Assembly: GCA_029834535.1 (NCBI GenBank)
Contig: JAQMWT010000406.1
Coordinates: 62,001 to 126,000, forward strand
Direction: 5' to 3'
Origin: Chrysophaeum taylorii
Taxonomy: Eukaryota; Sar; Pelagophyceae; Pelagomonadales; Pelagomonadaceae
DNA: 64,000 nucleotides
In this document: piece by piece, positions 51,043-64,000 of the stretch
How positions within the stretch are numbered: the stretch's first letter is position 1
Layout: the number at the start of each line of letters is the position of its first letter
Position numbers and translations under genes: made by a program
Notes under the pieces: generated by a model
Database searches by the model: none
The model's input: the letters and a program-made list of their open reading frames with translations, nothing else
What the model was told of the DNA's origin: nothing

Positions 51043-51305
51043 CTCCACCACCACCAAACGGTTTTTTATTTCTAAGTCGTGAAAGAAAAGGGGCGGAAGG
51101 GTAAGGAAGAAGGAGAGAGGGAAAGCCGTATTACGGACAGAAAACCCTCGTGTAGAGATAGGTGTGAAATGTTCCAGTGTCGCATAGCTCTCTGGACCCC
51201 CTCGACGTGTGGAAACAGTTTGTGCATTTCAGACGTGTTCTTGAGGCGGAACTTGTGCAATATACATGACAATGGAACAAACAACAACAGAACAGGGCAA
51301 ATTAA
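51043..51305. other. Boundary between host helicase gene and retrotransposon
   Basis: Holds the 5' flank of the helicase gene and the 3' end of the retrotransposon. A purine run (GAGGGGG on the minus strand, 51197-51203) is a candidate 3' polypurine tract. No sequence here matches the right side of the element (63570-64000) well enough to call LTRs. Confidence 0.4.
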
Positions 51306-51890
51306 TTATGATGTCGAGCGTGTTGTAATGTTACGCAAAGAAGCTGTATCAGCATCCACGTCAGATGTATGGTCCAGTTCATCTTCACTATTATCACCCA
51401 GTTCCTTTGACTCTGGAGAAGGTGAGTTATGTACATCTGATGGTGGGTCGTTGGTAGTGTTAGTATTGTGCGTAGTCATTGCATCACTCAAGGTAACCAA
51501 GGGTGATATGACAGATGAAAGGAAAGACATAGCAGTGTCAGGAGTAAAAGCGTGTAGATCCAATGCAGGAATAACACGATCATTTGCATCAGACATAGCT
51601 GCATGGAGATGATGAGCTGCTGCGTCGATTTGAACTTGCTGAGCCTCATTATACGTATTTGGAGGGAGCTGTCCAATAGATGAGATCAGTGATCGAGAAA
51701 TAATATGGACAAATACAGCAGAAGACGGGATTATGATGTCCTGATGCATCTGAAGACTTGACAGGTTGTTGTCTAGTAGAGACACATGCTTGATGTTCTC
51801 AATCACTTGGGTGTTTAAATTTTCGTAAATTTCTTGCATCTGTGTGAGAGATGTTGATGCAAGCGATAGTTGTTCCTCTTGTGCCTTCAA
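51306..51890 (-). pseudogene. 3' ORF of the retrotransposon, coiled-coil C-terminal part
   Basis: About 194 codons. Starts with a Gln/Leu-rich coiled-coil-like stretch (LTQMQEIYENLNTQV) and ends with an acidic, Ser/Thr/Asn-rich tail. No family recognised. It continues, via a frameshift, the frame at 51887-52096 and shares the element's base composition. Confidence 0.5.
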
Positions 51891-52096
51891 TTCTGTTCGG
51901 TATTAGTGAGACGCAAGGATAAGGACCGAACCTCTTCTTTTAATTGATGTAAAGATTCAGCCATATTATCGTTAGTTTTATCCGGCGTAGGTTCAGCGGG
52001 TGGATTGTCGATCGGCGCTGGTGAAACATCTTCAGAAGAAGTATCATCTGAAAAGACATCATTTATGTCCGAAGGGTAGCCAACCTGGACTAGCAC
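51887..52096 (-). pseudogene. 3' ORF of the retrotransposon, acidic linker part
   Basis: 69 codons, rich in Asp/Ser/Pro/Thr and ending in a coiled-coil-like LHQLKEEVRSLSLRL. It overlaps the next fragment by four bases in another frame, which indicates a single broken ORF rather than separate genes. Confidence 0.45.
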
Positions 52097-52099
52097 ATT

Positions 52100-52517
52100 T
52101 TAAACGGCAGCTTGCTGTATGGGGGTTAGTTGACGAAAATAATTAAGCATTGGCGGTAACGTTTCCGAGGAGATTGTGTTAAGTTGGTGAGAAACATCAT
52201 CAACGAAGCGTTCAACAAGCACATTAAGCAGCTCGTCCGGGTTGGTTACTATGCATACTTTATCTTCAACAGAATGTAACAGAGACCAAGCTGCTACAAG
52301 AATCTCAAGATTTACACTCGAGATAAAGGGCAACCGAAGTAAGATCATGCTGCTTTCATCAGGGTTAACAATGATTTTGGAGACATCAACTTTAAGGGAT
52401 GTTGCAGTTTGCATGATTGCCTCTTTAAGCTGCTTATTAATAGCAATAGACTTTCCAAGGTGGAGGATTATAGCCCTGATGTGGGCCGCTGGATCGTTAA
52501 AACAAGAAAGTTGGAAG
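52100..52517 (-). pseudogene. 3' ORF of the retrotransposon, middle part (after TRIM insertion)
   Basis: The frame resumes directly beyond the TRIM insertion with QLSCFNDPAAHIRAIILHL and runs about 138 codons to a stop at 52100. Helical, no recognised motif. Before the insertion this and the 52961-53813 fragment were adjacent. Confidence 0.55.
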
Positions 52518-52584
52518 CAAAAGGTGAGGGTAGGAATGCCGGTCCTGGTGTGTGCGAGTGCCCGGGGCTGTATATACCCCTGTG
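52518..52584 (-). repeat. TRIM 3' terminal repeat
   Basis: 67-bp repeat, same orientation as 52894-52960, two mismatches. Preceded on the minus strand by the purine tract GATGGGGAAG and followed by the target duplication CTTCC. Confidence 0.8.
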
Positions 52585-52893
52585 CTTCCCCATCACAGTG
52601 AAACGTGAACATCTGGGGCGAGTCAAGCATGTATGCGAGACGGTGGGGACCCAGCAGACGACGACGCCATCTGCTTAAGATGAACATCTGCGTCGGAGAT
52701 GAACATCCGGTCCTGGTAAGTGAAAGCGCCCAGATGAGGGGGGTCTAGTGTGTGTGCTAGACGATGGGGCTCCAGCAGTTGGCGACGGCAGCTGCTTCGA
52801 AGGCACTCACACACTCCTTGCGGCGCAGCGGTGGGGCGGATTCGAACGCGCGAACCACCTCGAGCGCTTTAAGGGCCCATAACCAAAACTTGG

Positions 52894-52960
52894 CAAAAGG
52901 TGAGGGTAGGAATGCCGGTCCTGATGTGTGCTAGTGCCCGGGGCTGTATATACCCCTGTG
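52894..52960 (-). repeat. TRIM 5' terminal repeat
   Basis: 67-bp repeat matching 52518-52584. Preceded on the minus strand by target duplication CTTCC; the primer-binding-like GGTTATGGGCCC begins nine bases downstream. Confidence 0.8.
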
Positions 52961-53813
52961 GGAAGGGCTGCTGACTATTGCGGATTAAAGCTATCCCATG
53001 ATGTGACCGATCGCACAGCGCACAAATCAACAAGAAGAAAGGGCGCGGCACATCGAAACAGTGAGATGCATGTTGCGCAGACGCGAGATGATCCTCAATA
53101 ATTTGGCGAATCGCGTCAGTTTTAAGTTCGTCTTCATTGCAAATGGTGAGCACGACTGGTGTGCCTGGCGCTTTCACTTTGTTATAACACTTTGTACACA
53201 TCACGTGAACTTTGACAACCCCTTTAATGGGTGGGAAGCGATGAAGACGAATTCCCTCATTAGGAGATATAGCGGGGGCGTTTCGGATACGCTTAGTCTT
53301 GACACACAACAAAGAGCTGAGATATTGGACATTGTCTACAAACTCTGTCTGTTGTGCTTCCGTAAGTAGCTGCTGCAAAGACTCAAACCAGCACTGGGGG
53401 TCCTTGTGTTGCGGAATAAGGAAATTGGGTGGTGATGAGCCAAGGGCAGTAACGTTCCCGGACATCATCGCTAATACGTCAAATTTACAATGTTTGAGCA
53501 GGAAATACTCAGACTTTGTTGCTTGCAATTTAGACTGTTGTTGGGCAGCTGCTTTGGGAGTCGATTGATGTCCTTGTGCCACCGACAAATAGGTTTGATG
53601 TTTCCGTTTAGGGGAACTAGTCGGTGCAACGCTTGGAGTTAGAGCATTAAAAGGTGGAGACAGTGACAGTATACCACCACTACGACCCCGGTTCATGGTA
53701 GAGTGGCGTCGGCTCGCAGCATCTTTGTTTTTAGTGGGATTCATCATGAGAGGAATCTCCACATCACATTTTATGTAGCATTTCACATTTTTGCAAGCCA
53801 GTATCATGTGCAT
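52961..53813 (-). pseudogene. Extra ORF downstream of RNase H, unknown function
   Basis: About 284 codons up to the TRIM insertion. Lys/Ser/Gln-rich N terminus, then a helical middle (CWFESLQQLLTEAQQTEFV). A possible zinc-binding region follows: VMCTKCYNK with CxxC, ASHCFD, and LLICALCDRSHHG with another CxxC and two His. It lies where some LTR elements carry an envelope or accessory ORF, but there is no signal peptide or membrane helix. I do not recognise a family. Confidence 0.6.
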
Positions 53814-53863
53814 GGCAGGGTTAGTTTAAAGTCATTTCGGACATAATGGAGGGTAATGATTAA

Positions 53864-54715
53864 CTAACTATCTTGTTGAACTATGGGTTGTTGTAAGCCG
53901 AGTAACGTGCGAAATCTGCTGAAGAGTGGAGCTCCAAAGGGTTTGGTAAATCCATCGGCGATATTATGGGAGCCGGAAACATGATGTAGACGGATGCGTT
54001 TTAACTGTACGTAGTCGCGTACACGGAACCAACGTGTGCTGATAGCTTTAGCCTTAGTCGCACTGTCGGGATTATTAGATAGATGAATAGCAGAAGCAGA
54101 ATCTCCAAGTATAGGGCTGTTACGTATGAACGACATGTCCGACGGGAGGGGATTGTCGTGAGCATCATAGTCTAATAGCAAGTCTTTCCCTGGAGGTTGG
54201 TGGAAATAGAAGTGAGGATTTATAGCGAATGCCATTTCCGTTAGCAATTTGCGTAACCAGACCACATCATCGGCGCACATATTAAGGGCTATGAGCTCAC
54301 TTTCGTGCGTAGAAGTAGCTGTAATAGGTTGCAACTTGGACTTCCAAGTGATGAGAGAACCAAACAGAAGGATAGCGTAACCGGTCGTAGATTTGCGGTC
54401 TTGTTCATAAGAGGGTGCATTATCGGCATCAACGAACGCGACTAGTGGATCAAAATTACCTGAATTAACTAGTTCTTTAGTGTAGTCCAACATGGTAGCC
54501 ATGTCAGTACGATTACCGATAAGAAGTCGAAGATGGTCCATTAGAGCGGAAGAACCAGAGTAGTACCAGAGGCGAAGATTGCGATTTTCGGGCTTGCGCA
54601 AGTAGCAGAGCGTTCCTGTTAGTACTTGAACATGTAGAAATGCTGGATTATGCATTCCTCGAGAGCAACGACCTAAGGCTTTGGGATAAATCAGGACGAC
54701 AGGCCAATTGAACAA
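53864..54715 (-). pseudogene. Copia RNase H domain
   Basis: The copia RNase H signature is intact: VAFVDADNAPSYEQDRKSTTGY (first catalytic Asp and the RKSTTGY motif), ATSTHESELIAL (catalytic Glu), GDSASAIHLSNNP (second Asp), and HHVSGSHNIADGFTKP near the end. It overlaps the reverse transcriptase fragment in a different frame at its start, so one frameshift separates them. The opening codon is TTG, consistent with an internal piece of a polyprotein rather than an independent ORF. Confidence 0.88.
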
Positions 54716-55945
54716 ACGTGAGCTTGCCGAGTAGTGTAGAGAAAGTATGAAGGATGAACTTGTCCATATCAGAAGATGACTCTCCAGTTTTATACGTGGT
54801 TGATGGTGACATCGGTGTGGAAGTGGGGCGCAACTGCATTAAAACGGGGTACTCTTCGAACAATGCATCAAGTTTAGCCTGACAGTCCAGTGATATAGAA
54901 CCATCAGTTGTACGCGTTATGCGCATGCCTAAGAGAGTATGGACTTCCTCGAAGGTGTCGACTGAGTATTCCTTTTTCAGAGCGTGCTGGAACTCACGAC
55001 GTAGAGTTTCTGAAGTACAAGTAATGACGACGTCGTCTACTGAGAGCGTGCAAATTAGAAATGTAGCGTCAGCTTGGACTTTAGCGTAAATGCATGTGTC
55101 TGTTCGAAATCGTGTATAGCCTAATGAATCAAAGAAGCCGTTTATGGTTTGATTCCAAAGGGCAGGGCTCTGACGCAATCCATAGAGAGATTTAAGTAGC
55201 TTTGGAAGACGGCGGCCTTGGTATTTAGTATCTTCGGGATCGAGAAGGTAAATGCCTTGAGGCAGTTTGACGTAGACATGAGAATCGATGGGAGCTTGAA
55301 CAAAAGCGTTAGGGACGTCGACATGGTAGACGGGAAGTCGCAGGTGAGCTGCTAGCGCCAAAACACAACGGATGCCGGTAAGCTGTGCCATAGGACTGAA
55401 TGTGTTGAAGAAATCGGTGCCCAGAGAGGCTAAGAATCCTCGTAGGACCAGGCGTGCTTTATGTTTAATGTACTGACCAGCAGCGTTGGTTTTTATCCGT
55501 AGGACGAGACGGGTGTCAATAGGTTTTGAGTTGACCATTGGCAGCGCTAGTTTAAAGCAGCCAAACTTAACAATGTCAAAAATCTCTTTAGAGATGGCAG
55601 CAACATAAGCTTTGCGATCAGCGTCTGAGAGACCTTTGAGGCAGGTCAACTCATATTCATCAATTTTGATATCTTTGGCTTGAATCTTGTATTCGTCCGA
55701 ACCAACCGTGCTAGGGTCATGAGTCGTCGTCAGATGAGTAATCGAATAAGAAGCGATATTATCGTGCAGATGAGCATGATCGGGATCTTCGACGAGTTGA
55801 ACAACTAGTAGAGGAGCATCACCAAGGTGGGCTTCAATGTAATGCGATTGTACGGTGATATAGTCTTCGATGGCGGAGAGATGAGGCTCAGAAGCGCCGT
55901 AAGAAGCGTCATCCACAATCCTTACTACTAATCGACAGATGTTTG
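54648..55945 (-). pseudogene. Copia reverse transcriptase (RVT_2)
   Basis: Clear RVT_2 domain: KHKARLVLRGF, TFSPMAQLTGIRCVLALAA, VYHVDVPNAFVQAPI (first catalytic Asp), LPKLLKSLYGLRQSPALWNQ, the active site LSVDDVVI (usual YVDD), and LLGMRITR. The frame runs on upstream through GC-rich sequence to 56051, but that stretch belongs to the Helitron insertion, so the copia sequence is taken to begin near 55945. The frame is long and open, the best preserved part of the element. Confidence 0.9.
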
Positions 55946-56006
55946 TCTGTTTGTCTGTCCCCCGATTTAGGGTAAGGATCAGGTAGGCCCGCGAGCCAGG
56001 CAGGCA

Positions 56007-56530
56007 TTGATCCTCCAAGCCGTCTACGGCGACCTCGCAGACTATTTCCACGACCCGCGGCGGCTCTTTCAGCGCGCCATTCTCACGCCCCGTCGAAACG
56101 ATGTTGTCGATGCTGACAACGCGCGCATGACCGCGGCCTTTTTTCCCCGGAGACGAGGCGTCGGAGTTCTTTTTCGGGAGACTAGGTTGGGTCGGAAGAC
56201 GACGCCTCGCTCTTTACAGTCGAGTTTTCAACTCCCTGACAACCAACGGCATGCTGACTTTGAGCGCGAGCTTAAAGTCTTCGCAACCTCGACCAGTCGC
56301 ACGGCCACTGCAACGGTACCAGATACATGATCGATCGTGTCGTTGTCACCGAGGCTCCTCCAACCTGTATCCCTTAAGGCCCGCCTACGCCAACGATCAA
56401 CAAGAGCCAGGGCCAGACGCCCCGCGAGGTCGGCGTCCTCTTGCCCAAGCCCGTCTTCTGTCACGTCCAGCGCTACGTGGCTCACTGTCGATCGGCAGCC
56501 CCGAGAATATGCTCTTCTGAGTCGACGACT
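56007..56530 (+). pseudogene. Helitron/PIF1 helicase C-terminal remnant
   Basis: Contains RAILTPRRNDVVDADNARM, a NGTRYMIDR stretch and TINKSQGQT followed by PREVGVLLPKPVF, spread over at least three frames. The order and spacing match the C-terminal half of the PIF1-like helicase of Helitron transposons; host PIF1 shares these motifs but would not be expected as a broken fragment inside a retrotransposon. Confidence 0.75.
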
Positions 56531-56597
56531 CCACCCTACCCCACACGTGCTGCGCAATACCGACAAGCCCCCTCCCGGCGTCTACACGCGCACTGTA

Positions 56598-56936
56598 GGT
56601 GAACTTACTGGGACAAGATGAACTTACTGGGGTTAGAGATTGGGACTATGTGAATATAGTGACCACGTGAGCTTACTGAGACCAGGTGAACTTACTGGGT
56701 TTTCTAGAGTAAACTCAAGGATTGGCGGCGCGTGCGGATCAAAGCAGCTTGGATTGGCGGGGGTGAGAGCGACGAGCTCAAAGGAGTGGGTGTGAGCACG
56801 AGCGGGTTTACGCCGAACTTACTGGGGTTAGAGATTTGGACTAGGTGAACTTACTGACCAGGTGAACTTACTGGGACCAGGTGACCAGGTGAACTTACTG
56901 GGGTTAGAGATTCGGACTAGGTGAACTTACTGGCCT
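56598..56936. repeat. Tandem gaacttactgg repeats
   Basis: Around nine copies of a gtgaacttactgg(gg) core, some followed by ttagagatt(c/t/g)ggacta, irregularly spaced and interrupted at 56705-56810 by the dispersed repeat. Located at the 3' side of the Helitron fragment. Confidence 0.85.
56727..56786. repeat. Dispersed repeat, copy 2
   Basis: Partner of 24701-24760: aaagcagctt(a/g)gattggcgggggt and following gagcg/cgagc/aaaggag blocks in identical order. Here it lies inside the Helitron-derived insertion. Confidence 0.6.
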
Positions 56937-56939
56937 GCA

Positions 56940-58107
56940 CTTGTTATGATCCAAAATGGAGTGGGACGTGAACAAAGCATAAACATATTGAGCGGGAGGA
57001 ACTTGAATGGCGTGAGCATGTTCAGAGATTAAATGAACGAGAGCTTGAGGAAAGTGAAAGTCTGCAAGGTTGATGTTGTCGCAGAAGTGAACATGAGGAG
57101 TATCAGGTGATGGGTGGCTATGGCTCCTATGACACATAACTGAAGAGGACTGTGAAATCGCTTGGTGCACATGGTGTAAATCCCCCCTCTGGAGGTATAG
57201 CCGTCCAGTGGATGCCATGAGTGATATGAAGGGAGTGGAGGGTGGGGTCGCAGAAGGTTATGTACTGCTTGGAGAGGTCATACTTGAAGTCGGCAAGCGT
57301 ACCACCGGCTTGTTTATAAGCGGCAACAGTAGGCGAAGCAATACGAGTAAGAACATCCTTGAGATTGGTTTTGCGACGAGGCTGAGGATGATGAGGACCA
57401 CGGGTGAGACGGAGGACATCCTGGGAACAGAGAGACCGATAAGATGGTAAAAGTGGCAGAGTGTCGGGAGACACTTCGGATGTAGGTGTGGTGGTGGAAG
57501 TAGCGGGTGCAGGAGGAGCTGGAGCACATGCGGGAGCGGGAGAGGGAGCATGGAGATGAGAAGAAGGAGTCCCCCTCTCATGGTCAGTGTTGGTAGGCAT
57601 AGCATTCCCCCTCTGCGTCGCATCATTGGGGGTGCTGTGAACAGAGAAGGGAATGTCGGGTGAAGGTGCGGGAGGTGGATGCTGTTCATAATCAGGAGGA
57701 GATTTAGAAATAAGATGGGGAAAAGTCAGTTTAGAGGAAACACGGACTTGGCCGTTTTCAGGATTAAGGACAACATCGGCTAAATGATTAACGTGGGGTG
57801 TTATTAAAGGATTTATAACGTTAGCACCGCATAGGTAGATGTAGGGACGACATCGGGGCTCATATTTATGAAATTCGTTAGGTTCCAAATGCAAATAACA
57901 AACAGAGCCAAAAGGTTTGAGGTAGTCTTGTTGGGGAACATTACATTGGTCTAACAAAACTTGTTGGGGACTTAGGACTTTATTATAAATACGTTCGAGG
58001 GAAACGTTAGGGAGGAGATTATATGATTGGATAGCATGTATAACAGCCCACGGGTAGTGTGGTGCCGGATCTGTTAGGGGGTGACCTTTATAGGATACAT
58101 TAAGCAT
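56940..58107 (-). pseudogene. Copia integrase C-terminal region and linker
   Basis: Begins after the catalytic core. YPWAVIHAIQSYNLLPN, SPQQVLLDQCNVPQQDYLKPFGSVCYLHL and RPYIYLCGANVIN match the conserved copia region after the DDE core (W..A...A....N, the FG..CY.H box and the Y-I-x-L-G box). A long Pro/Thr-rich linker follows, then HITHGIHWTAIPPE. A frameshift near 57127-57218 moves the frame before the Helitron insertion cuts it. Confidence 0.8.
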
Positions 58108-58136
58108 ATGCCTGAGTCGTGTAGACGCGGCAGTGT

Positions 58137-58490
58137 CTATGTGACCAACATGGCTTCGACTTCATGATTAAATACATGTAAGTAAGGGGGGAACGCGGAC
58201 ATATTAATACCGTGTTCCACACGGAAGGGGGTTGTAACATGCTGGGATAAATAGGGTTTAAAGGAATCACAATAAATTTGTTTTAGTTGTACATGAACAT
58301 AAGTAGAGCAAAAATTGCGGACAAACTCAAGGGCGTTACAAAATTCGCTGGAGTTAGTGCTACGACAAAAGTACACTAACAGAAATTTAGAAATGAGACA
58401 CTTGAAGACAATAATATGTCGAAAGGATCCCCATTCCGAGAGAACAGTGACGTAACCACCGTCACATGCCCAAGCTTCACCAGGTTGAAA
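58137..58490 (-). pseudogene. Copia integrase catalytic core
   Basis: The DDE triad is visible over two frames: GEAWACDGGYVTV (first Asp, near 58470), QIYCDSFKPY (second Asp) and YLHVFNHEVEAM (Glu, matching the NG-x-AE-R-M position). The first Asp is in a different frame from the zinc-binding fragment upstream. The core therefore looks complete in residues but not in frame. Confidence 0.75.
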
Positions 58491-58814
58491 ATTTTTTTCG
58501 AATGATGGTTGCTTGATAAGATGGTGTGGATGAGGAAAGCTTTTTTATGAATTGTACAATCCACACAGAACTTACGGTAGGGTACGTCAGATGGGTGGTG
58601 TCCAGGACTGGCAGATGGGTGGTGTCCAGGACTGGCAATAACCTGAACAGCTTTTATAGCTTGAAAATCACTGGAATGGTGAATGTTGTGAAAGTTAGTA
58701 GCTCGTTGTTGCGCATCTCGAAATACAAGGGTGCCCCTGGCATGGACTTTCTTATCGAAGGGCGCATGCTTCTCGTGGAGCTGTCTTGGCGTTATAAGTG
58801 GTATTTGTTTTTCT
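58490..58814 (-). pseudogene. Integrase zinc-binding (pre-integrase) region
   Basis: HNIHHSSDF followed by FCVDCTIHKKAF resembles the H-H-C-C zinc-binding domain before copia integrase cores. It contains a tandem duplication of eight residues (ASPGHHPS twice), matching a 24-bp direct duplication at 58590-58636. The same frame runs into the end of the methyltransferase region upstream. Confidence 0.65.
58590..58636. repeat. 24-bp tandem duplication in integrase zinc-binding region
   Basis: agatgggtggtgtccaggac plus tggc is present twice head to tail, duplicating eight codons of the zinc-binding region. Confidence 0.85.
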
Positions 58815-59402
58815 TTAGTAGGAGAAAAATATATCTGCGGACAGGATGTTAGAGAGGAAAGCATGAGCTACTGAATCAGTATGAAAAGAGGTAAGTTCGT
58901 AGTTAGAAGTGATAGTATCACAACATAAGAGTTTTTTATTGGAAATGTAGAACATAGTAATGGAACTCTGGTGTAATGTTGAAGATGTATCTGTTGGGAA
59001 TATATTTGTGAAGGTTGGCCTATAGTTTTTAGTTAGAGGAGCGTGATCAGGGTTAAACGATGGTAATAGCGTTAATGTACGCAAGTCGTAAACAAGCTGA
59101 CACAAGTGTTTATAAATTGTATGATATGTTCCAGCTGGAATAGCATTTGCGATGATATCACAGCATAGGTCGGGGGACAAAGACGAAAGAAAATTGATTT
59201 GGTACGCTGTGAAGTTATTGGCGCGTGCCAATTCGCGAGTTGAGTAGTGTCGGATGCGATCGAGTCGTGGATCGTACACGGGCATATTAGCAAATCCACG
59301 AATGGTAGGAGTGGGAGTATATATAGAGTAAACTTTGGCCCCATCTTTCTGTCGCTTGATGTTATAAAGCCCAAATATCTGCTTTGGACAAGTGCATGTC
59401 AC
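58815..59402 (-). pseudogene. Retrotransposon methyltransferase, motifs IX-X
   Basis: Contains YTPTPTIRGFANMPVY, then RHYSTRELARANNF (motif IX, compare R-x-L-T-x-R-E-x-A-R-x-Q-x-F) and CDIIANAIPAGTYHTIYKHL (motif X, compare QIGNAVPPxLA). The remaining ~95 codons have no recognised motif and lead toward the integrase. The frame overlaps the previous fragment by about 40 bases (59362-59402), so one frameshift separates the target-recognition region from motifs IX-X. The listed start codon is GTG, in keeping with an internal polyprotein segment. Confidence 0.8.
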
Positions 59403-60045
59403 TTAAAGCAAATATTTTGTCGATAAATTCGAGGCGATTTTCCTGAGGGTAGAAGACAAAAGAATCATGAAATACATGAGAGGTGTAGGAAACCAGTGCT
59501 TGTACTAGACGACGTGTGTCTTGATTTTCATTATTATGATGGTATGCTTGGCGAAGCCAAAGAAAACCGGTGACTGGTTCGAGAGAAGCAGTCTTGTCGA
59601 TTCCGGCATCGTGTGTTAAAAGGGTGTAGGTTTCGCCAAAAGCATTTATGTGTACCTGGTATTTAGAAGAGGAGTTAGAAACTGTTATGTCTCCGCCTGT
59701 ATGTCTTCCACCGGTGATGTAAATGATGGAGGAAGTAGAGGGTTTATTTAAAAATAACCTATGAGATGGTTGGTTAGATTCGATAGTTGTAATACGAAAG
59801 GACACAGGTAATGTGATGGATTTAGGGAATAATCGTCCCATGATATTATAGAGGAGCACAAAAGCTTTGAGTTCAATAGGGGATCTCATGCAAACTAGTG
59901 GTATTCTTGAATTAGCCAAGAATCCCAGGCGAAAATTAGAAATGCCTTCCATTTCATCTTGACTGGGATGTTCGACTGTTTCATTAGAGTGCAGACGAAG
60001 GAACAGCATAGTTATGGTTTCGAGCTCAGTCACATTTAAGCGCAC
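59362..60045 (-). pseudogene. Retrotransposon methyltransferase, putative target-recognition region
   Basis: About 227 codons between motif VIII and motif IX, which is where C5-methyltransferases hold their variable target-recognition domain. Beta-rich stretches and GGRHTGGDITVSN, SLEPVTGFLWLRQAY are visible; no family signature, as expected for a TRD. It is joined to both neighbouring fragments by frameshifts. It could also contain unrelated retrotransposon sequence; position is the main argument. Confidence 0.55.
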
Positions 60046-60812
60046 GGATCCGGTACGACTAAATATGTTATAGGTTTGGGTGTGGACACAAATGGTAAGT
60101 CAGGAAAGACTTGTGTCCAAGGTTCGTCGACTATTAACTTGCGACTGATGGAATTAGCATGGTCTGCGATATCCAGAAAGGAGGTGACTCGTTTATTAGG
60201 CCATGAAAGCAAATCGAGACGGCCGGTGTTATATTTGCGTGCAACGAGGATCCATCTTTCTCTGGCTTGATAATCTCCACATAGATAGCATGGAAATCGG
60301 TCACATATGTCCGCCGTGTAGTGCATCGTTGAGAAGATGAGATTGGCAACTCGTATATGGTCTTCATACGATGCGGAGTGTGGTGGTGTCATTTCCATGA
60401 AAAGAACGAGCGGCTTTAAAAGCTCAAGTACACTTAGAGCACTTGGAAACAAGGAATCATCCATATCGCGCTCGAAGGTGGAAATGGATCTCCCATTGAT
60501 TATGTTGCGATTTGTGCATGGTGATGTCAATTCCACTATGTCAGTGTAATATCGTGCACGTTCAACGTCCGATGCTCGATGGAGATATGTCAAAACCTTA
60601 GGTAAGGATGGGAAAACTTCGATGGAGTTACCAAAACGTCTTCGTAGCATGTGCGTGATATTGTCGTCGCTCTCAACAAGAACTTTAACGTCGATGTTGA
60701 TTTGCAAGTCATTAGAAGCGCAAGCCAAGAATGCAGGAGTGGACATCCCAGAGCAAAGTAAAGTTACTGTAGGTATTCGTGGGCTAGGAGATGAAGTTAC
60801 TGTATGGAACAA
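60036..60812 (-). pseudogene. Retrotransposon methyltransferase, motifs I-VIII
   Basis: C5-DNA-methyltransferase catalytic half. Motif I: TVTLLCSGMSTPAF (SAM binding, ~residues 15-28). Motif II: VLVESDDNITHMLRRRF. Motif IV: DIVELTSPCTNRN with catalytic Cys 99 (near 60518), but PCT instead of PCQ/PCN. Motif VI: KPLVLFMEMTPPH, with E140 for the ENV Glu. Motifs VII-VIII: CYLCGDYQARERWILVARKY, with an exact QxRxR (182-186). Family role: transfer of methyl from SAM to cytosine C5. It lies directly after protease in the same orientation. The frame opens on TTG, so it was part of the polyprotein. Confidence 0.88.
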
Positions 60813-60830
60813 ACGTGTTGTAACCTTGCG

Positions 60831-63136
60831 TCATACTGGAGGTGAGAAATGCTTACGTATATAAGGCAGCTGTGAATGCATTGACTCCAAAATGGTTTTA
60901 AGCCATGGGACATAAATTACTCGTTCCATGAGGGTGGAGTATAGTTTGAGCATTTCGCGTTGTTCATTAAAAGCACATAGTCTGAACTGTAGTGAGCGAA
61001 GTTCCATTTTACGCGCTTTTGCTTGTTGTAGCGAGTAAATTGGTAGAGTTGGCAACAGGTTACTGAGTCTAAACAAAGTAATCTTGACATTATCATCAAT
61101 TTTACTCTGGATAGATGATTGTCCTTTAAATTCGACTCCATAAAGGTGTATACCAAGTTTATCTTCTCCCCATTGAGTCATACTGATGATGTGCAGATCG
61201 GGATCGTTATGGTCGTTTTGCTTGGGTAGAAAAAGCGCAACGTCTAGCTTTACATATCCCACATTTGGATGCTTTGGGAGAGCGGGAATGACGGTCCTTA
61301 TAATCATAGCATGTGTGATTCTCTGCGTATCCGTAGCAGTCTGGATAGCAGGTGATAAGGACTCGGGTAGCTTTGCGATGTGGATAGGATCAGCATAACG
61401 TTTAAAGTTAATTGCATGTTGAGAAGCACATGTGTCAGCATATCCTGGCGTAGTCATTAGCGGCAAATTGTACTCGTTGTACAATTTAAGCATTGTCGCA
61501 TAAAAGGCATGTGTTGAGCTTTGACCAAACACGTACTGTGTCATGAAACTTTGCGTTTGTTCGGAAGGCACAACGACGAGTGTAAAACCAGTATTTAGTT
61601 TTGGTAGCAACACAGGGGGATCTGTACCATCTTCGTTGGTTAAATTACTGGGGAGCTCAGAGTGCAAAGAAGTTTCCCGAGCTTGACGACGAACAATAGC
61701 ATTCTGAGCTTTAGCATTTATGTGCTGCAATAGCGGCTGAGGGATGTTATCGATTTCATCGTCTTTAATTGACAGGAAAGTGTGGAACATTTTCTCTGTA
61801 TCAGCAGTCCCCCTCTGCTCCGCATCACTGGGGGGCGCTTCAGGAGCAGATGTTTCAGTTTGATACTTTTCTTCTGAAACCAGAGATTCCTCATCGGCTT
61901 CCAAGAGGTTCGATATGGTATTGGACGTAATATCAACTCGAGATAAGTAGAGATGAACTTGGGTGGCTTCATCAGGATCCAAGGACTGTGTCGAAGCTTG
62001 AGAAGCGGTTGTCCAGAGGGTACTCAATAAGCTTTTCATTTCCTCCTGTACCATTTTAGAGTCGGTGGAAGGATTGGGATTCGCTTCCTGCAATTTACCA
62101 AACAGGTGGCGAAGACGATCAACTTGATAAGTAGCCCGGTCCATAAGAGACATATTCGAGCGTGCATTACGGTTAGAAGAAGATGAGTAGACAGGACGAT
62201 CGAAGCTGGTACCTTTGACGTTATAATTTGAAGGTGGACGATAGTACGACGTGTCACGGGGTGAGATTGTCGATGCTTTATCTTTAGCATTACGAAGCTT
62301 ACGAGCATTGAAGCCAGACTGTCCAGCTACAGTAGCTAACAACGAGTAAGCGTTGTTTAGAGAATCGTGGGATTGATGAATAGTGTCCATCAATAATACC
62401 TTAGGTGGCTTGGTAGCGGTAGTACCAGGGATGTAAGGGATCCAAGAAGCGGGTTTATCCAAGCGTCGGTTAGAAGAAAACTTTGTCTCATTATATATCT
62501 TTAACAAGAATTCCAATAGTGGACGAACGTCGTTGGGATCAACTAGCTTTAACAATTCGGGATCGTGACTCGAGTTGTTACTAGAGCGTGTCTCGTAGAG
62601 TTTACACCATTCCAATGAAGATTGAGAATAGCGCTCGTGATCCGATGGATTAGCATATAGACGGTAGATCTCCTCGTGAGCTTTAAGAGTGATTATGGAG
62701 TTATTAAATTGGATTGATGCTTCATCATTATTTAATTGCTTTGCCTGAGATTGAAAGGAAAGGAGTTGTTCGACAAATACATGGGCATACCAATTAACAT
62801 TTAGAGACATTCGATTAAACTGAGATTTAAGCTCAGTTGCATCTGTACAAGACACTGTCTCATAGTAATGATAGGCTAAAAGCATTACAGCAAGCATTAC
62901 AGCACGTAATTTATTAGGATGTGCAGGGGCTGCATAAATTTTCTTTAGTTGAGGCCACATAGCGAGAGCGGGCTTTTCCTGGGACTCGAGGTTAAAGAAT
63001 ATGTACAAAAAGCCAGCATAAGTTTCGCAGTGTTTGATCCAATCGGCATTAGAGAGACCTGTAAAGGATATGTTAGTTAAAGATGAATCATACACAATTG
63101 ATTTAGGAAATCGGGTATCTAATAAAGGACATTTTT
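60831..63136 (-). pseudogene. Copia gag and protease region
   Basis: About 760 codons. The first two thirds are gag-like: helical, Gln/Asn/Ser-rich, opening with LTNISFTGLSNADWIKHCETYAG; no CCHC knuckle was seen. The protease lies near 61430: TPGYADTCASQHAI corresponds to the retropepsin D-[ST]-G-A-S-x-H box of copia proteases, with Cys replacing the nearly invariant Gly. LDVALFLPK and LGIHLYG may be later strands. The frame is open from about 63136; a stop ends it at 60831, and the methyltransferase continues in another frame. Confidence 0.7.
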
Positions 63137-63212
63137 AACATCCTCATTTAATTCAGGACGGACAAGGTTGTACGACTCTTGGTAGTAAAGTCGTTCAAGG
63201 CTATTACGGGCA

Positions 63213-63569
63213 TCAACCGTTAGTTGAGAGGGAGTTGACGTGCCAAGTCTTTAAATATTCGGGCAGGGCATCTTCATCAGGTAAGTTTAAATCGTTAACT
63301 TGTTCAGCTTTCCATTGAGCGAAGATGATATCAGCTTCTTGTTCAAGGACTTGATTATATTCCGGAGCATTCCGGGTGTAAGCTTCATATGAATCATAGC
63401 AGAATAACGCGTCCACATATGGACTTGTCATATGCCTGTGAAGCGTTTCAATTTGTAAGCTCACCTTAGTTGAATTATCTTGGAAACGTAATCCTGCGTT
63501 AATCTTATCAACGAGGATCTGTTCTTGTTTGTAGATATCAGTGGTAGATATTGTTTTTTGTTTTGACAT
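63213..63569 (-). pseudogene. Start of gag
   Basis: 118 codons from an ATG at 63569 (SKQKTISTTDIYKQEQILVDK), with a helical, charged composition like the following gag region. After the stop at 63213 the same protein style continues in a second frame (LERLYYQESYNLVRPE, about 63120-63210) and then in the frame of the main gag fragment. Two indels therefore break gag near its start. Confidence 0.6.
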
Positions 63570-64000
63570 GATTGTGACCTATTAAGAGATAGGCTGGAGA
63601 ATTGATAGACAGATTCAACACACAAGAATGAAGGGCTTCTCAAGTGCGGGTTCTATGTACAGTACGCGATTTTTAAAACGTAGGCTTATTGACAAGACCA
63701 AACAAATCAACATGTTATTTAAAACAGGGTGACTTGAGACTGAAGAATGAATCAGTTCTCGAGCAGCCAGTCTTTTGTTGGGGAGTGGAAGGAAAATCCC
63801 ATACAAGTTTCCGCGGCTTGCATGGGAAAAATTTTAATTTTATTGGTTATGTGAGTGCATATGACCAGTGACCGACCCAACTCGGTCACAAACAGATTTA
63901 ACTGGATGGCACATACCGCCACACAACAAATATGTACAGTAGACCACCGCCAAACACATTGTCGCATTGTACTCGTGATCAGGCGCAAATTGATCATTCG
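63570..64000. other. 5' leader or LTR region of the retrotransposon, or flanking DNA
   Basis: No coding signal. Upstream of the gag ATG I looked for a tRNA-Met-type primer site (TGGTATCAGAGC or GGTTATGGGCCC on the minus strand) and did not find one. The 9-mer agagatagg is shared with 51140-51160 but is too short to call an LTR. The window ends before the element's right boundary can be settled. Confidence 0.4.

Follow-up and report, generated by a model that had tools for sequence, protein, structure and literature searches.

Ty1/copia retrotransposons of the pelagophyte Chrysophaeum taylorii encode a putative cytosine-5 methyltransferase between protease and integrase

Ty1/copia retrotransposons of Chrysophaeum taylorii (Pelagophyceae) very probably carry a cytosine-5 methyltransferase domain as a regular component of their Pol polyprotein, where it lies between the protease and the integrase. 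The evidence is the identity of the domain, its linkage to copia domains in uninterrupted frames and in many copies, its occurrence in three families (A, B, and C), purifying selection (families A and B), and an in-frame TGA codon kept before the enzyme in family A. The copy described first lies in a 64,000-nucleotide stretch of genomic DNA (C406:62001-126000), here called the window. An initial annotation of the window had proposed C5-methyltransferase motifs in correct order on the minus strand between a copia protease and a copia integrase, in an ochrophyte host. The motifs were seen there in three frame fragments, the placement at 58815-60812 was right to within about 170 bases, and the host, a pelagophyte, is an ochrophyte.

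The window element is a Ty1/copia-type LTR element of family A, on the minus strand, with terminal direct repeats. It occupies 51084-64000, and its 5' end lies beyond the window, reaching 64456 on the same contig (L033). The 3' LTR (51084-51196, minus strand) is short, about 110-130 bp, and is adjoined by a purine-rich GAGGGGG. The other terminal direct repeat is at 64325-64456, just outside the window. Similarity to the C242 copy (L032) ends at the same outer 5' base. The LTR search covered the window copy, for which no target-site duplication was resolved. Gag and aspartic protease occupy 60831-63578 on the minus strand, in ORFs at 63213-63578 and 60831-63134. The protease motif DTCAS was recognized by eye at about 61423-61437 (minus strand) and gag was assigned by position; a Pfam scan of the window gag and protease gave no match for either. 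Downstream of the methyltransferase are frame fragments of a copia integrase (57777-58867, minus strand, ends approximate) with a zinc-binding region, an rve core, and an SH3-like part. The rve (E = 5e-4) and SH3_retrovirus (E = 7.9e-6) matches were both under the Pfam curated cut-offs, as were the rve and SH3 matches in all frames scanned. The copia reverse transcriptase and RNase H region is at 53864-55685 (minus strand), with a Pfam RVT_2 match at 54849-55535 (E = 1.4e-42) and RNase H assigned by position and sequence only. The characters of Ty1/copia, namely an RVT_2-type reverse transcriptase, an integrase preceding it, and short direct LTRs, were all present in the window copy. The same order of integrase and reverse transcriptase was found in L029, L030, and, by sequence, L052. 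The window copy is decayed, with the methyltransferase and integrase split across several frames. GC content per 2 kb was 0.41-0.52 from 54001 on and was 0.44 for the whole element compared to 0.61 in window positions 1-48000, in keeping with the AT-rich composition described in the initial annotation. The observed/expected CpG ratio was 0.92 for the element compared to 1.37 in positions 1-48000, a lower value to which base composition may contribute no less than methylation.

Other sequences are associated with the element. A repeat unrelated to the element, about 1 kb long and with no strand assigned, is inserted between the integrase and the reverse transcriptase. Repeats of this kind, with CAGTAAGTTCACCT units, were located at 55969-56952 in the window, at 2003-2999 in L032, and at 940-1949 in L033, at differing sites in or near copia copies. 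Remnants of an extra 3' ORF (ORF3) containing CxxC pairs lie downstream of RNase H at 51309-53825 (minus strand). Two copies share it, the window element and the C242 copy, and it was located at about 8860-10000 in L032 and at 1-800 in L035. The ORF3 region of the window contains a 444-base insertion (52517-52960) that has no counterpart in the C242 copy and is bounded by direct terminal repeats of 68 bases, 97% alike. It looks like a tiny non-autonomous LTR-type element.

The methyltransferase of the window was read from three minus-strand frame fragments. The first (60075-60830) contains motifs I to VIII, with the motif register taken from relatives. The second (59380-60078) contains the middle part, a target-recognition-like region that matches L029 frame residues 252-484 at 80% identity, and the third (58983-59375, start approximate) contains motifs IX and X. 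The motifs in 58983-60830 occur in the order I (LLCSGMST), II (VESD), IV (ELTSPCTNRN), VI (FMEMTPPH), VIII (GDYQARERW), IX (TRELARANNF), and X (IANAIPAGT), and include the catalytic Cys (IV), Glu (VI), and Arg (VIII). All align in register with DNMT2, DNMT5, and phage enzymes. The motif names follow the C5-methyltransferase literature. The catalytic Cys and Glu and the QxRxR motif were invariant in six family A and six family C copies, and identity between the two families was 45-47%.

The initial annotation had proposed a search of the fragments against the DNA_methylase family. Pfam recognized none of the methyltransferase pieces of the window. Among full-length family A copies PF00145 matched one of 12, with an E-value of 0.2, and no match was significant; none was found for family C. 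All eight family B copies were above the curated cut-off. PHROG 116 ('DNA methyltransferase') matched all 12 full-length family A copies when matches were counted to an E-value of 10 (best 1.9e-4; L029 1.1e-3). In the set of six A and six C copies, nine of 12 matched it at an E-value of up to 1, and family C copy L055 reached 0.06 only. PADLOC assigned MTase_II to 10 of 12 copies (best E = 0.0062, matches to E = 10). A relative of the family A/C methyltransferase, P0121, was found as an MMETSP transcript protein of another marine eukaryote. It was 43% identical to the window fragment (2e-65) and matched PHROG 116 (3e-8), PHROG 363 (7.4e-5), and PF00145 (4.4e-4; 20.2 bits, cut-off 22). A profile of families A and C with P0121 scored 44.3 against a DNMT2 profile, a score reached by none of 200 column shuffles (maximum 24.4), and family B scored 43.3. 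Both matches span motifs I to VIII. Leaving P0121 out weakened the comparison: A and C together gave P = 0.0019 and A by itself P = 0.0095, and the reversed controls gave 0.42 (A and C) and 0.14 (B). These comparisons support a predicted cytosine-5 methyltransferase lineage missed by Pfam in families A and C, together with that of family B.

That the Pfam miss means that no methyltransferase is present was ruled out by the PHROG 116 matches, P0121, and the profile shuffles. Other searches returned little. AlphaFold models of the window fragment alone and with P0121 had mean pLDDT values of 33 and 35 and were unusable. PDB sequence searches gave one weak match to a cytosine methyltransferase (8yf3, E = 0.037), the rest being none or unrelated and weak, and NCBIfam gave one weak match only, which was unrelated. 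No relative was found in IMG/VR scans or in a phage search with P0121, and a family B homologue search found none at 0.001 among 7,997 candidates scored.

The genome searched comprised 70.8 Mb in 697 contigs; the published C. taylorii assembly is given as 71 Mbp and 702 contigs in the portion of PMC10366177 consulted. With the methyltransferase half of the window as query at least 145 family A matches were found, the window included (145 of 942 candidates scored, a few contigs being possible duplicates, as C25 and C521 give the same coordinates). Family C had at least 74 matches (69 of 1,604 candidates scored) and family B at least 83 (74 of 780 candidates scored), some matches in these two families being two pieces of one copy. 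Copies with open frames join the domains directly. L029 has an uninterrupted frame of 1,464 amino acids that covers methyltransferase, integrase, and the start of the reverse transcriptase, with weak integrase and reverse transcriptase matches (E = 9e-5 to 0.011). An uninterrupted frame of 1,691 amino acids in C42 covers methyltransferase, integrase, and reverse transcriptase. The family B locus L030 has one frame of 1,952 amino acids with matches to DNA_methylase (1.1e-7), rve (0.0061), and RVT_2 (1.6e-38), preceded by a protease-like DGGAS motif.

Of 26 family A rows, 21 had an integrase behind the methyltransferase end and on its strand, corresponding to 20 of 25 places as the window and L009 are one place; the remaining five rows had no integrase within the available DNA, and five further loci without a match to the methyltransferase end are left out of this count. 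Gag and protease were upstream in all 20 family A rows reaching far enough, and the other six begin within about 60 bases of the methyltransferase. In family B 12 of the 14 rows having downstream DNA had the integrase behind the methyltransferase, three further rows being without downstream DNA and L008 without a methyltransferase-end match. The three family C rows with more than 2 kb all had it, and five others have 120 bases only. Linkage of methyltransferase and copia domains in other copies, which the initial annotation had made the test of its proposal, was found, single uninterrupted frames included. Identity between A and C was 188/283 in the reverse transcriptase and 175/317 in the integrase, compared to 98/279 and 64/236 between A and B. 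Three families, A and C close and B remote, thus have the predicted methyltransferase ahead of the integrase. Many reverse transcriptase matches had an identical score (148.1 bits, positions 8-220), and some lie downstream of a family C methyltransferase match on the same strand (C331:34148 behind C331:30201). These were read as a probable recent burst of family C.

The broken state of the window copy and its lack of recognition by Pfam would suit a fragment of a host DNMT that had fallen into one copia copy, an origin under which the insertion would be found only here. This was refuted by the at least 145 matches, the integrase and reverse transcriptase in single frames, and the integrase link at 20 of 25 family A places, and we give it practically no chance.

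The methyltransferase is under purifying selection in families A and B, the families covered by the dN/dS analysis. In 12 full-length family A copies, drawn from 27 A frames, the median dN/dS was 0.093 over 66 pairs (range 0.031-0.224). In seven family B copies it was 0.196 over 21 pairs (range 0.124-0.620). For the pair L029 and L032 the methyltransferase had a dN of 0.060 and a dS of 0.86, and the integrase a dN of 0.031 and a dS of 0.849. Values of dS above 1 are saturated and rough. The choice of copies with open frames biases dN/dS somewhat low, which alone should not yield 0.09. By region, family A values were alike, at 0.075 for motifs I to VIII and 0.089 and 0.096 for the rest of the domain. 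The motifs depart in places from the usual form. Families A and C have EM instead of EN in motif VI and CTN instead of CQ in motif IV, and family B is without the Gln of motif VIII. Given these departures and the adjoining integrase, catalysis may have been lost and the domain retained next to the integrase as a module that binds DNA or targets integration. We consider this quite unlikely. Families A and C share the catalytic Cys and Glu as well as the residues of motif I, and selection in family A is as strong in motifs I to VIII as elsewhere in the domain.

The codon directly before the methyltransferase was TGA, in frame with gag and protease, in 30 of 31 family A rows (29 of 30 distinct places). 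In the window it is at 60831-60833 (minus strand), at the junction of gag-protease and methyltransferase (TGA CGC AAG), and is a proposed readthrough stop. L036 is the sole row without an in-frame TGA, being out of frame there, while L037 retains the TGA although its pairwise dS is 1.3-2.0. The next codon in the 30 rows is CGC (27), CAC (2), or CGA (1). Two family C copies were compared: the sequence is TGA CTA in L055, with one more stop upstream of it, and TGA ATG in L052. In plant viruses a TGA is leaky and allows readthrough when CTA or CG comes next, and many LTR elements produce integrase and reverse transcriptase by recoding. The keeping of the TGA before the enzyme suggests stop-codon readthrough. 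Ribosomes would sometimes pass the TGA, and the products would probably be Gag-protease plus a low amount of Gag-protease-methyltransferase-integrase-reverse transcriptase. It is rather unlikely that the TGA is a true stop and that the methyltransferase ORF has its own start or a separate RNA. The transcript-derived P0121 of another species starts with Met near this point and L052 has its ATG directly after the TGA, which would agree with a separate start. However, the codon after the TGA is never a start in the 30 family A rows, the reading frame does not change across the stop, the methyltransferase continues into integrase and reverse transcriptase, and the TGA of L055 stands in the leaky CTA context. 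Family B seems to be expressed differently from A, because in the one copy compared (L030) gag overlaps pol by 37 bases, pol uses the -1 frame, and its coding region includes the protease-like motif.

Being part of Pol, the enzyme would be produced at a low level and packaged with reverse transcriptase and integrase in a virus-like particle. It could methylate the newly made cDNA of the element before or at integration and so give the new copy host-like marks, a step that we put forward tentatively, as possible more than probable. Such a mode of action was proposed for DIRS elements by de Mendoza et al. (PMC5890265, in the sections available). C/T differences among the C. taylorii copies (190 pairs, 20 copies) were 0.104 at CG compared to 0.086 at CA, 0.093 at CT, and 0.071 at CC. 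The slight CG excess gives no sign of strong CpG methylation decay in the copies. Sites without marked decay would also be expected if a real element methyltransferase acted in a DNMT2-like manner on RNA, either element RNA or the tRNA primer, and not on DNA. The profile match is to DNMT2, which is a tRNA enzyme, and RNA methylation was raised for the SymbioLINE DNMTs in the available sections of de Mendoza et al. This we regard as unlikely. The match tells of fold and not of substrate, because DNMT2 was the only deep profile compared. The domain has a long stretch between motifs VIII and IX, where target-recognition domains are located, and family B shows the PCQ and ENV seen in DNA enzymes and also in DNMT2.

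Host DNMTs were identified apart from the elements. The DNMT2/TRDMT1 gene (C634, L001) encodes 360 amino acids, is 100% identical to CTAYLR_008533, and lies outside any element. A host DNMT5-like frame of more than 2,000 amino acids (L031, G000:C621) has DNA_methylase (8.3e-17) and SNF2 (3e-13) matches and long acidic runs. These two were the best of 57 PF00145 matches in the genome. Family B accounted for 36 of the other 55, assigned by overlap, nearness, or sequence, with 19 of the 57 falling outside the assignments. DNMT5 reportedly only maintains methylation, according to work in Cryptococcus. If so, the copia elements with their hundreds of methyltransferase copies might be the source of de novo cytosine methylation in this genome, and the parasite would write methylation which the host copies. 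We consider this improbable.

The element enzymes resemble DNMT2/TRDMT1 in the profile match over motifs I to VIII and differ from it in that DNMT2 is a host gene and is separated from them by a well-supported branch. A tree with 20 rows placed families A and C with P0121 on the same side of this branch as family B (97/97) and DNMT2 on the other, with long-branch warnings; the family B row L061 was dropped, and DNMT3 and published retrotransposon DNMT sequences were not among the rows. On the question of one or two captures, the full-profile comparison scored above all 200 shuffles, as did the core alone, and the middle region alone was reached by four of 200. The same comparisons were weak without P0121 (hhalign E = 0.23, then 0.025). 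The capture is likely to have been independent of those of the published element DNMTs, as the element superfamily is different.

Retrotransposon-borne DNMTs had been mentioned in the initial annotation for dinoflagellates and charophytes. That part stands, but the elements are LINE and DIRS in the dinoflagellate and Gypsy in the charophyte, not copia (PMC5890265, available sections). According to the same sections KnitGypsy-Dnmt3, an LTR Gypsy element of the charophyte Klebsormidium nitens, encodes a DNMT3-type enzyme with a Ka/Ks below 0.2. The C. taylorii elements are similar to it in having a cytosine methyltransferase within an LTR-type Pol polyprotein, several copies, and purifying selection. 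They differ in being Ty1/copia, in their ochrophyte host, in a divergent lineage missed by Pfam (A and C) in addition to family B, and in the TGA before the enzyme (A and C). SymbioDIRS-Dnmt3 and SymbioLINE-Dnmt of Symbiodinium have hundreds of copies, and the SymbioDIRS enzymes methylate CG in yeast; de novo methylation was detected for these and was inconclusive for the LINE and Gypsy enzymes (PMC5890265, as available). In both Symbiodinium and C. taylorii the DNMT is encoded by a multicopy retrotransposon, but the former elements are DIRS, with a tyrosine recombinase, and LINE. The features of the retrotransposon-borne DNMT kind (de Mendoza 2018), a DNMT in the coding frame, multiple copies, and purifying selection (measured in families A and B), were found here. 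In brown algae the DNA transposon Sola1-1_Ec32 of Ectocarpus encodes ParB and an N4-cytosine or N6-adenine type methyltransferase, according to the text available of PMC12477816. It is likewise a mobile element with its own DNA methyltransferase, but it is not a retrotransposon and its enzyme is neither C5 nor in Pol.

One ambiguous sentence apart, no Ty1/copia DNMT was described in the available portions of the open literature consulted (PMC5890265, PMC12344493, PMC9998398, PMC12477816, and PMC3145265), a scope that excluded Repbase and subscription papers. The Symbiodinium LTR Copia element 'lacks any DNMT domain' in the portion of PMC5890265 available. The ambiguous sentence, in the available portion of PMC12344493, cites PMC5890265 with the words 'as previously reported' for its statement that 'LTR Copia and DIRS' elements contain some DNMT3 members. 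PMC5890265 describes Gypsy, and the 'LTR Copia' wording was taken as a probable slip. The main text of the C. taylorii genome paper, in the form available (PMC10366177), contained no 'transpos', 'repeat', or 'copia'.

Three types of element, in two lineages, were already known in which a parasite of the silencing system has captured a silencing enzyme. The ochrophyte Ty1/copia elements would extend this to a further superfamily and host group, with a methyltransferase lineage missed by Pfam and an expression layout that is unusual. Such an element may mark its own DNA as hosts mark and silence mobile elements. With copy numbers, divergent families, and selection at hand, and with the assembly public, what an element gains from a DNMT becomes testable by comparison.
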